A stretch of 64,000 nucleotides of DNA from Nocardioides marmoribigeumensis. Its GTDB lineage: Bacteria > Actinomycetota > Actinomycetes > Propionibacteriales > Nocardioidaceae. Position 1 is the first letter of the stretch, and each line of letters opens with the position of its first letter. Positions 26,983 to 62,283 of this stretch are shown one piece after another. The stretch is taken from the NCBI RefSeq assembly GCF_031458325.1, contig NZ_JAVDYG010000001.1, forward strand, positions 62,001 through 126,000. The letters are read 5' to 3'. The notes under the pieces were generated by a model. The model was not told the DNA's origin and ran no database searches. It was given only the letters and a program-made list of their open reading frames with translations. The position numbers were made by a program, and so were the translations under genes.

Positions 26983-27336
26983 CGCCCACACCCCTGGGGC
27001 GGTCCCCGCTGGTCACTGCACTCCCCCTCCGGCCGGCTCCGAGCGCCGGACGTCGTTGCGGTCTGTCGTCCCGTCGACCCCGGTCGGACCCCACCGTCCG
27101 GGTGACGTCCCGGCTGAGCGGGGGCACAAGGGCCAGGACATCTGTCAGCAAGTCAACGACTTCCACGGCAAAATGTCACGAGGGGACACCTGTTCCCTGT
27201 GTGCGATCGTCCACACCCCACTGATTCCGTCGTCTCCCGTGTCGCCTGCGTCACGGCGGCCCCAGCCGACCCAGCCGACCCAGCACCGGGCCGCGCCGCA
27301 TCGTGGACGGGCGACCGGCCGGCGTCACCGTGTGGC
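26983..27336. other. Intergenic region between divergent PAS-like gene and aromatic leader
   Basis: About 350 bases without a convincing gene. Part of it (about 27140-27230) is richer in A and T than the surroundings and probably holds the promoter of the minus-strand PAS/receiver unit, but I cannot fix a clear -10/-35 pair. Bases 27259-27285 contain a short direct repeat (CAGCCGACC twice, then CAGCACCGG). Confidence 0.4.
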
Positions 27337-27342
27337 TAGCCT
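27337..27342 (+). promoter_or_regulatory. -10 element of the DAHP synthase leader
   Basis: TAGCCT fits the actinobacterial TANNNT -10. It ends six bases before the GTG of the leader peptide, so transcription should start at or beside the start codon and the leader peptide would be read from a leaderless mRNA. The -35 is weak (GACCGG at 27313-27318). Confidence 0.5.
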
Positions 27343-27348
27343 CGGCTC

Positions 27349-27411
27349 GTGCACGCCTGGACCTATTCCTTCGCCACCTGCCCGGGGCTCCCGAGCAGCC
27401 GGCAACGGTAG
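27349..27411 (+). CDS. Aromatic leader peptide of the DAHP synthase attenuator
   Basis: A 20-codon frame from a GTG with a TAG stop, reading MHAWTYSFATCPGLPSSRQR. Trp4, Tyr6 and Phe8 stand close together, i.e. all three end products of the pathway whose first enzyme is encoded next. Tyr uses TAT, rare in this GC-rich DNA. The stop lies 27 bases before a perfect terminator hairpin. This is the layout of ribosome-mediated attenuation: scarcity of charged aromatic tRNA would stall ribosomes on codons 4-8 and favour read-through. No ribosome site is visible, consistent with a leaderless transcript. Confidence 0.7.
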   Translation: MHAWTYSFATCPGLPSSRQR

Positions 27412-27438
27412 GTCACTGCCTGCGCCGCGCCGCCCACC

Positions 27439-27466
27439 AACGCCCCTGGTTCCCGCAGGGGCGTTT
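27439..27466 (+). terminator. Attenuator terminator ahead of the DAHP synthase gene
   Basis: AACGCCCCTG (27439-27448) and CAGGGGCGTT (27456-27465) form a perfect 10-base stem with a 7-base loop, followed by T then CGCATG. The rival pairing CCGGGGC (27382-27388, inside the leader peptide) with GCCCCTGG (27442-27449) would break this stem and can serve as antiterminator. It lies 60 bases before the enzyme start. Confidence 0.75.
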
Positions 27467-27525
27467 CGCATGTCGCCGGTTGCGCGGACCCTGCCAGGAC
27501 CGGGGCCTACCCACAGGAGGAACCC

Positions 27526-28569
27526 ATGGTCGTCGTCATGACGCCCGACGCCACCGACGAGGACGTCCAGCGCGTCGTCGACAAGGTCACAGCCGTCGGC
27601 GGTGAGGCCTTCGTCAGCAAGGGCCTGACGCGCACGATCATCGGCCTGGTCGGCGACATCGACTCCTTCCACGGCCTCAACCTGCGCACGCTGCCCGGGG
27701 TCGGGGACGTGCAGCGCATCTCCGACCCGTTCAAGCTGGTCAGCCGCCAGCACCACCCCGAGCGCAGCACCGTCTGGGTCGGCGCCCCGGGGCAGCAGGT
27801 CCCGATCGGGCCCGACACGTTCACCTTCATCGCCGGCCCGTGCGCCGTCGAGTCGGCCCAGCAGACCCTCGAGGCGGTCGAGATGGCCCGCGCCGCGGGT
27901 GCGGTGATGATGCGCGGCGGGGCCTACAAGCCCCGCACCTCGCCATACGCCTTCCAGGGCCTGGGGGTGAAGGGCCTGGAGATCCTCGCGTCGGTCCGCG
28001 AGGCCACCGGGATGCCCGTGGTCACCGAGGTGGTCGACGCCCGCGACGTCGCCGTCGTCGCCGAGCACGCCGACATGCTGCAGATCGGCACGCGCAACAT
28101 GGCCAACTTCGGGCTGCTGCAGGCGGTCGGGCAGGCCGGCAAGCCGGTCCTCCTCAAGCGCGGCATGACCGCGACGATCGAGGAGTGGCTGATGGCGGCG
28201 GAGTACATCGCCCAGCGCGGCAACCTCGACGTCGTCCTCTGCGAGCGCGGCATCCGCACCTTCGAGCCCGCGACCCGCAACACCCTCGACATCAGCGCGG
28301 TCCCGATCGTGCAGTCCAAGAGCCACCTGCCGGTGATCGTCGACCCGTCCCACGCCGCCGGTGTCAAGGACCTGGTCGTCCCCCTGTCGCGGGCCGCGAT
28401 CGCGGTCGGGGCCGACGGCGTGATCGTCGACGTCCACCCCCACCCGGAGGAGGCGCTGTGCGACGGGCCCCAGGCGCTCCTCGGCGCCGACCTGCGCAGC
28501 CTCGCCCAGGCGGTCCGTCAGCTCCCCCCGACGGTGGGTCGCGTCGACGCCGGGACCGCCCGCCGTTAG
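27526..28569 (+). CDS. aroF: 3-deoxy-7-phosphoheptulonate synthase, type I (AroA-I-beta)
   Basis: A 347-residue DAHP synthase: phosphoenolpyruvate plus erythrose-4-phosphate gives DAHP, the entry step to Phe, Tyr and Trp. Residues 1-70 are the ferredoxin-like/ACT-type regulatory domain of the I-beta group (MTPDATDEDVQRVVDKVTAVGGEAF). The barrel has IAGPCAVES, RGGAYKPRTSPYAFQG, IGTRNMANFGLL, LLKRGM, LCERGIRTFE and the metal/substrate-binding IVDPSHAAG and VDVHPHPEEALCDG. The N-terminal domain suggests allosteric control by aromatic amino acids. It follows the attenuator; AGGAGG precedes the ATG. A second, unrelated DAHP synthase lies at 31072-32427. Confidence 0.92.
   Translation: MVVVMTPDATDEDVQRVVDKVTAVGGEAFVSKGLTRTIIGLVGDIDSFHGLNLRTLPGVGDVQRISDPFKLVSRQHHPERSTVWVGAPGQQVPIGPDTFTFIAGPCAVESAQQTLEAVEMARAAGAVMMRGGAYKPRTSPYAFQGLGVKGLEILASVREATGMPVVTEVVDARDVAVVAEHADMLQIGTRNMANFGLLQAVGQAGKPVLLKRGMTATIEEWLMAAEYIAQRGNLDVVLCERGIRTFEPATRNTLDISAVPIVQSKSHLPVIVDPSHAAGVKDLVVPLSRAAIAVGADGVIVDVHPHPEEALCDGPQALLGADLRSLAQAVRQLPPTVGRVDAGTARR

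Positions 28570-31071: not shown

Positions 31072-31100
<29 letters not shown>
30360..31100 (+). CDS. TIGR02206 / YwaF family membrane protein
   Basis: A 246-residue integral membrane protein with seven hydrophobic segments. The family pattern is visible: FTPEHLGLVVGF near the N-terminus, LPLQLCDLAWMAAIVAL in helix 3, VYFWGLTLTVQGIVTPSLGEVFPDPRYFMFWGMHLATVWAAVYL, and GTNYGYLNRKPAVGSLLDLLGPWPGYVVAE near the C-terminus. The family is widespread in Gram-positive bacteria and of unknown function. The gene ends inside the convergent class II DAHP synthase gene (29-base tail overlap). Confidence 0.85.
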
Positions 31101-32427
<1,327 letters not shown>

Positions 32428-62108: not shown

Positions 62109-62127
62109 GTCAGCTGTCTCCTTTGTC

Positions 62128-62283
62128 TGACGCCTACCGGGTTAGCTGACGGGTTCGGGCGGCAAAGAAACCCTACGGAGCAAGCTCCGATTCACCCCAA
62201 GGACGTGGGTCCCCGGCTCCGCTCGCACGCTGCCGGGATGGGCGGCGCGCTGCGCGGACTAAGCGCGGCTCCCGCGCCGACGG
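62128..62283 (-). ncRNA. ydaO-yuaA riboswitch (c-di-AMP sensing)
   Basis: On the minus strand the leader of the NlpC/P60 gene carries the conserved blocks of this class in order: GGAGCCGGGGACCC, then GGGGTGAATC (62189-62198), GTAGGG (62171-62176), CCCGAACCCG with TCAGCTAACC (62140-62159), then GTAGGC (62132-62137). The last block ends about 24 bases before the start codon. In actinobacteria this riboswitch commonly controls wall hydrolase genes and turns them off when c-di-AMP is high. The outer ends given are approximate. Confidence 0.9.

Follow-up and report, generated by a model that had tools for sequence, protein, structure and literature searches.

The type I DAHP synthase gene of this DNA is preceded by a short leader frame at which attenuation is very likely, as judged from sequence comparison and RNA folding. 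To the full reading, a ribosome-mediated transcription attenuator for DAHP synthase which is read from a leaderless mRNA, we assign a probability of roughly 85%. The window, meaning the whole analysed stretch of 64,000 nucleotides, belongs to a genome of 4.44 Mb in a single contig, with Nocardioidaceae as nearest named relatives. According to the proposed mechanism, transcription would start at or next to the GTG of the leader frame, and the ribosome would initiate directly there, as the spacing of the -10 box and the missing Shine-Dalgarno sequence suggest. With charged tRNA for Trp, Tyr or Phe plentiful, the ribosome would run on. Upon its passage, the hairpin P1 would re-form behind it, or the ribosome would stand between the two rival strands; the terminator-like hairpin (27439-27465) would form and RNA polymerase would stop before the gene. 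With one of these tRNAs in short supply, the ribosome would stall on codon 4, 6 or 8 and reach with its front edge no farther than the foot of P1. In this stalled state 27382-27388 would pair with 27442-27449, the hairpin would not be made, and the DAHP synthase gene would be transcribed. The features are summarized in Table 1.

Table 1. Features of the leader region and the DAHP synthase genes (positions of the window)
Feature	Position	Strand	Details
-10 box TAGCCT (TAnnnT)	27337..27342	+	6 nt upstream of leader GTG
Leader peptide frame, MHAWTYSFATCPGLPSSRQR and stop	27349..27411	+	20 codons, GTG start, MHAWTYSF..., no Shine-Dalgarno sequence seen
Proposed sensing codons	27358..27372	+	Trp4 TGG (27358-27360), Tyr6 TAT (27364-27366), Phe8 TTC (27370-27372); from codon reading and stall model
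Hairpin P1 in the leader frame (CTGC-C-CGGG / CCCG-A-GCAG)	27378..27398	+	predicted to tie up the antiterminator strand
Antiterminator strand CCGGGGC	27382..27388	+	leader codons 12-14; predicted to pair within P1 or with the terminator 5' arm
Terminator-like hairpin AACGCCCCTG-7-CAGGGGCGTT	27439..27465	+	perfect 10-bp stem 27439-27448/27456-27465, 7-base loop; 5' arm 27442-27449 is the antiterminator partner
Shine-Dalgarno sequence AGGAGGA of the DAHP synthase gene	27515..27521	+	sequence
Type I DAHP synthase, B. subtilis subfamily, ferredoxin-like N-terminal domain	27526..28569	+	PF00793 (E 1.1e-78), PF18152; TIGR01361 and PRK08673, both over cut-off
Type II DAHP synthase	31093-32388	-	PF01474/TIGR01358

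The leader was found as the sequence-only reading had described it, a 20-codon GTG frame with Trp4, Tyr6 and Phe8, and its aromatic codons form the motif W-T-Y-S-F (W-x-Y-x-F), i.e., end-product codons are clustered in a short upstream frame, as in known attenuators. Using a scan for ATG or GTG frames of 9-32 codons with at least two aromatic residues within six and a TAnnnT box 5-8 nt upstream, exactly one match was obtained on both strands of the 64-kb window, namely the frame at 27349. Conservation in close relatives, proposed earlier as a check, was observed. From four genomes of the same genus searched with the protein two matched, and both of these (L082 and L083, the latter being the same DNA as L001) keep W-x-Y-x-F in their leaders VQRSWTYAFACRSGCPSSRLG and MQRWSYLFAGCPGLPGSEAR, with TAnnnT 6 and 7 nt upstream; P1 strands, hairpin and tail are recognisable in the alignment. 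That a chance frame met chance stems in GC-rich intergenic DNA has next to no probability. Stems form easily in high-GC sequence, and the fold of the 191-nt region was no better than those of shuffled sequences (z -0.69; 46 of 200 shuffles as stable), but frame, codons and promoter spacing are conserved across relatives and the scan of 64 kb gave this one match.

Other functions of the frame were considered. Translational coupling or re-initiation, by which the short frame would raise DAHP synthase expression, has been proposed for leader genes near a start codon (PMC4833913); here this is very improbable, since 114 nt separate the leader stop from the gene start (120 and 145 nt in the two relatives of the genus) and a separate Shine-Dalgarno sequence precedes the gene. 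Sequestration of this Shine-Dalgarno sequence by the hairpin was rejected, as the hairpin ends 49 nt upstream of it. Among nine aligned leaders Y6, F8, P12, G13 and P15 are invariant. An arrest peptide was also rejected, since a ribosome on the sensing codons would carry a nascent chain of just 3-7 residues, and the conserved P-G-x-P codons further on would coincide with the P1/antiterminator strand. At gathering scores Rfam gave no family, T-box or other cis-element at the leader position, and an Rfam element was discarded on these grounds. The sole Rfam match in the window at these scores is a c-di-AMP riboswitch (RF00379, 87.5 bits) at 62116-62254 on the minus strand.

For the survey of relatives, 80 named loci found by protein similarity and 15 loci from 39 relatives were combined with a class sample of 197 genomes, which contributed 74 B. 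subtilis-type loci (of 94 listed matches) and all 36 E. coli-type loci. The control consisted of the 30 best-scoring upstream regions of type II DAHP synthase genes; because half of these came from one family (f22), 20 further type II regions were added, taken from the family of the window or from leader-bearing families. All loci were scanned in the same way, for frames of 9-32 codons that have two aromatic residues within six and a TAnnnT box 5-8 nt upstream. Leaders were found at 46 of the 80 protein-similarity loci, at 5 of the 15 loci from relatives and, within the class sample, at 38 of 74 B. subtilis-type loci (40 less two chance matches) and 28 of 36 E. coli-type loci (29 less one chance match). 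At the type II regions the same scan gave 0/30 and 0/20 leaders (0/50). A total of 117 of the 205 type I DAHP synthase loci carried a leader, after L131, L221 and L222 had been dropped by eye as chance from 120 raw matches. Eight of the 117 represent DNA fetched twice, leaving 109 distinct neighbourhoods, and the 117 correspond to 96 distinct leaders; counts on 79 leaders given below rest on a partial list, the full list being these 96. Four loci with little upstream DNA (L032, L062, L189, L200) were counted as misses among the 205. Counted by taxon, leaders occur in 66 of 92 genomes of the class sample and in 16 of its 25 families for which a type I locus was examined. At L003 and L084 (Nocardioidaceae MAG SSC3), a leader MQQLTYWFGHLPGF... 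runs without in-frame stop before the gene start, either by a real change or by an assembly error; this Y-W-F leader was left out of the counts.

Evidence on the transcription start came from a promoter-free search for leaders in the 80 protein-similarity loci, which yielded 45 leaders. TAnnnT was located 4-9 nt before the start codon in all 45, compared to a background of 2/2073 at that spacing for ATG/GTG inside genes, and a Shine-Dalgarno-like sequence was seen before the leader start in none of them (0/45). The genes behind these leaders showed a Shine-Dalgarno-like sequence in 41 of 45 cases and a TAnnnT -10 box in 0/45. TAnnnT in all and a Shine-Dalgarno sequence in none of the leaders make a leaderless transcript likely, and the leader of the window, which had appeared leaderless already from its own letters, is thus likely transcribed without a 5' UTR. 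The consensus scan of 27000-27800 found no sigma-70 promoter. Out of 35 loci without a leader in the promoter-free search two are cut off and two (L003, L040) do carry one; 31 remain, i.e., a leader is absent at 31 of the 78 protein-similarity loci with readable upstream DNA. These 31 show TAnnnT directly before the gene's own start (23) or a Shine-Dalgarno-like sequence (8). Together with the 45 leaders this indicates that the gene at these loci either follows an attenuator or, at most of the others, looks leaderless itself. Examples of DAHP synthase genes which lack the leader and look leaderless are L020, L029, L031, L034, L038 and L041, among others. At L017 and L045 we noticed by eye an inverted repeat of the GAGGGTG/CACCCTC type upstream instead of a leader.

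The perfect 10-base terminator stem and the rival pairing (seven pairs with one bulged base, 27447), both claimed before, are present, and the antiterminator pairing excludes the terminator-like hairpin by computation, as is expected for an attenuator. Hairpins starting at most 32 nt from the leader stop were found for 93 of the 96 leaders, and 86 of these hairpins reached -14 kcal/mol or lower. The corresponding control used random points of type II loci with mixed orientation; of 180 such points, 16 reached -14 kcal/mol or lower, versus 68 of 74 leaders. The tail behind the stem of the window, TTTCGCATGT, is U-poor, and the consensus scan of 27000-27800 found no U-tract terminator. Because such a U-tract appears too weak for intrinsic termination, leader and switch might be real while the stop is Rho-dependent or the hairpin only pauses the polymerase. 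This version we consider rather unlikely. It agrees with the tail of the window, with the result of the consensus scan and with the 30 of 74 leaders that do not have at least four T in the first seven bases (44 do), and Rho has been proposed for actinobacterial leaders without terminators (Seliverstov et al., PMC1262725). It is countered by the hairpin right after the leader in 93/96 cases, by clean T-runs in several relatives, e.g., L064 and L193, and by T directly behind the stem, at the first place in 68 and at the second in 60 of 74 leaders. For Nocardioides very few intrinsic terminators (30) have been predicted (PMC2965389). As separate observations, the post-hairpin bases (27464-27475 in the window) are alike in distant leaders (TTTCGTCATGT-like), beyond what a plain U-tract needs, and T stands at the eighth place after the hairpin in 45/74 leaders.

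Paired changes were observed in P1. At one position, 21 Nocardioides-type leaders have U-A (9), U-G (4), C-G (3), G-C (1) or unpaired bases (4). Where P1 of the window has a C.A mismatch, L082 pairs U-A and L083 C-G; in L082 a different pair has turned into C.A. Inside each Nocardioidaceae subgroup no covariation was found for the terminator and antiterminator pairs, because these pairs are near-invariant there. Between subgroups, leaders with GCCCGGGGC have GCCCCTGG or GCCCCGAG as terminator 5' arm in 8/8 cases and leaders with GCCGG have CCCCGG there in 21/21; in the 3' arm, the base ahead of GGGG is A in 7 of the 8 leaders of the first type and C or T in the 21 of the second. Using 65 leaders, the duplex with the own partner had a mean of -15.10 versus -13.99 (sd 0.25) for swapped partners, and 0/5000 permutations reached it; these swap and pair counts are over related leaders, with kinship still in them. 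For E. coli-type leaders the own-partner pairing with the hairpin arm was weak, -11.7 versus -10.8 for within-group swaps. Several of them (L137, L145, L157 and others) show a pairing of 10-12 bp between the leader codons for A-P-G-G and the sequence immediately ahead of the hairpin; it is possible in most of 21 listed E. coli-type leaders and does not overlap with the hairpin.

Stalling was modelled by folding the RNA from the front edge of the ribosome, the position of which was assumed, to the end of the terminator loop, at equilibrium and not kinetically. In the window, the terminator 5' arm was held by the leader with a probability of 0.61 for codons 2-7, which includes A-site stalls at Trp4 and Tyr6 (0.61 each), of 0.51 for Phe8, 0.13 for codon 9 and 0.00 from codon 10. 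The earlier claim that a stall on codons 4-8 leaves the rival segment free is therefore supported by the model; stalls at codons 2 and 3 (His, Ala) act alike. The companion claim, that a ribosome at the stop covers this segment, was not supported. With the usual ribosome footprint, a ribosome at the leader stop codon (27409), about 20 nt downstream of 27382-27388, would sit between the rival strands. In L082 the same boundary at the last aromatic codon was obtained (0.66 on its Phe9, 0.00 on codon 10). Averaged over 65 of the 68 group-1 leaders, three being omitted as they have no hairpin within 32 nt, the value was 0.45 on the last aromatic codon, 0.70 two codons upstream of it, and 0.24 and 0.11 one and three codons downstream. 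Ribosome edges of 13, 15, 16 and 17 nt shifted the fall by at most about one codon in 53 leaders; the 53-leader runs omit L001, L004, L026, L036 and L201, for which the hairpin was mispicked. Shuffling the bases after the last aromatic codon lowered the mean from 0.67 to 0.46, with the observed value higher in 58/65 leaders; in the window itself the observed value was reached by 4 of 30 tail shuffles. In the minimum-energy fold of the window without ribosome, P1 is formed and the terminator arm is free of the antiterminator. The mean without ribosome over the 53 leaders was 0.37, and some relatives would therefore form the antiterminator without any ribosome. In the fold model with its assumed edge, the regulatory codons of the window are placed such that the antiterminator becomes free upon a stall but not upon passage.

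Comparing the aromatic codons of the 96 distinct leaders, Tyr was found in 96, Phe in 95, Trp in 53 and all three in 53. Sensing of all three amino acids is possible in the window; it does not appear to be a rule of the family, because Trp is conserved less than Tyr and Phe (present in 3 of the 28 distinct leaders from loci L001-L063, within the protein-similarity set), and of the three responses the one to Trp is the least certain. It is conceivable, with odds of about one in three, that the same attenuator design answers to Phe and/or Tyr only, Trp4 being incidental or too far upstream. The near invariance of Tyr and Phe next to the rarity of Trp in L001-L063 speaks for such a restriction, as do the last aromatic codon, which is Phe or Tyr in 78/79 leaders, and the aroR leader of C. 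glutamicum, which has F-Y-F and is described as answering to Phe and not to Tyr (PMC11802643). Against it, both same-genus relatives have W at the same position, W occurs in 53/96 leaders, and the fold model gives a stall at W4 the same antiterminator as one at Y6. Moreover, the 1500 nt upstream of three TIGR00564 (trpE-family) matches, all below the family cut-off, and of the prephenate dehydratase match of the genome contained no aromatic leaderless leader, so that among the genes tested Trp would be without another sensor of this kind.

For the attenuator as proposed, codon choice at the sensing positions is of interest. In 39 leaders (38 protein-similarity loci and the window), TAT and TAC were found in a ratio of 34:13 and TTT and TTC in a ratio of 30:29, versus 1:157 and 2:275 in the DAHP synthase genes behind them. 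Among the 68 group-1 leaders, 116 of 200 clustered Phe/Tyr codons end in T, whereas of the remaining 269 codons ahead of the last aromatic one only 26 end in A/T. From the rarity of TAT and TTT we infer that they may be decoded slowly; the window uses TAT for Tyr and TTC for Phe. A need for weak structure near the leaderless start is a possible other reason for T-ending codons, but such a need would not stop at Phe and Tyr codons.

The type I and type II DAHP synthase genes of the window are convergent, with 2.5 kb between them, and no aromatic leader was found ahead of the type II gene. By eye from coordinates, this convergent type I/type II neighbourhood recurs in many genomes of the class. 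Both type I isozymes were matched in 23 genomes and examined in 17; a leader on exactly one of them was found in 17/17, a result which depends on the three chance matches dropped by eye. The attenuated isozyme was of the E. coli type in 9 and of the B. subtilis type in 8 of these genomes and differs between families f20 and f23. As the 17 genomes come from two families, the pattern may amount to two or few events. Taken to its widest form, the reading would be that of a wide actinomycete family in which one leaderless attenuator integrates Trp, Tyr and Phe availability at the first step, is tuned by deliberately slow TAT/TTT codons, and sits on exactly one type I DAHP synthase per genome, with the isozyme switching between lineages. 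We put this forward tentatively and rate it somewhat below even odds.

One described case, aroR of C. glutamicum, now stands beside a family that allows comparison, with 96 distinct leaders in all and a presence in 16/25 families of the class sample. The stall edge before the antiterminator strand offers a testable rule for which leader codons count, and rare synonymous codons concentrate at the sensing positions. For the engineering of aromatic amino acid production in actinomycetes, the leader is a probable site of control ahead of the first pathway enzyme.

Among known systems aroR-aroF of Corynebacterium glutamicum comes closest; the attenuators of this organism, aroR included, are leaderless. 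Located ahead of aroF (DAHP synthase), aroR carries F-Y-F and is described as Phe-responsive (Neshat et al., 2014, as described in PMC4046766, PMC11802643, PMC11525245). In both systems a DAHP synthase gene is preceded by a leader peptide in which aromatic codons are clustered, and attenuation by ribosome stalling is reported there and proposed here; going by the description of aroR, they differ in the motif, W-x-Y-x-F in the window versus F-Y-F. They also differ in the enzyme. C. glutamicum, used as a control, matches TIGR00034 (E. coli-type DAHP synthase) and not TIGR01361, whereas the enzyme of the window matches TIGR01361 and no TIGR00034 match was found anywhere in its genome. In the open-access literature, among the matches listed, no such leader was reported outside Corynebacterium or ahead of a DAHP synthase of the B. 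subtilis type; as most subscription journals were outside the search, this argues only weakly for absence. For phenylalanine/tyrosine operons of Actinobacteria, Seliverstov et al. (2005; PMC1262725) report no conserved upstream structure.

A leaderless arrangement, regarded in the sequence-only reading as unusual for attenuation, turned out to have precedents. In S. lividans seven of eight leader peptides are described as transcribed leaderless, trpL, leuL and ilvL among them (PMC8079986), and cysteine attenuators on leaderless mRNA are described for M. smegmatis (PMC9031893). As predicted for the window, these leader peptides start at or near the mRNA 5' end, and several S. lividans leaders have downstream hairpins. 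They differ from the window in amino acids and targets; none of the eight S. lividans leaders listed belongs to a DAHP synthase. A further comparison is provided by E. coli ilvGMEDA, the leader of which is not leaderless. The notion that classic attenuators sense one amino acid does not hold there, ilvGMEDA being attenuated by all three branched-chain amino acids (PMC6449708). Similar to the design proposed here, one attenuator serves several end products in ilvGMEDA, with the difference that these belong to the branched-chain pathway.
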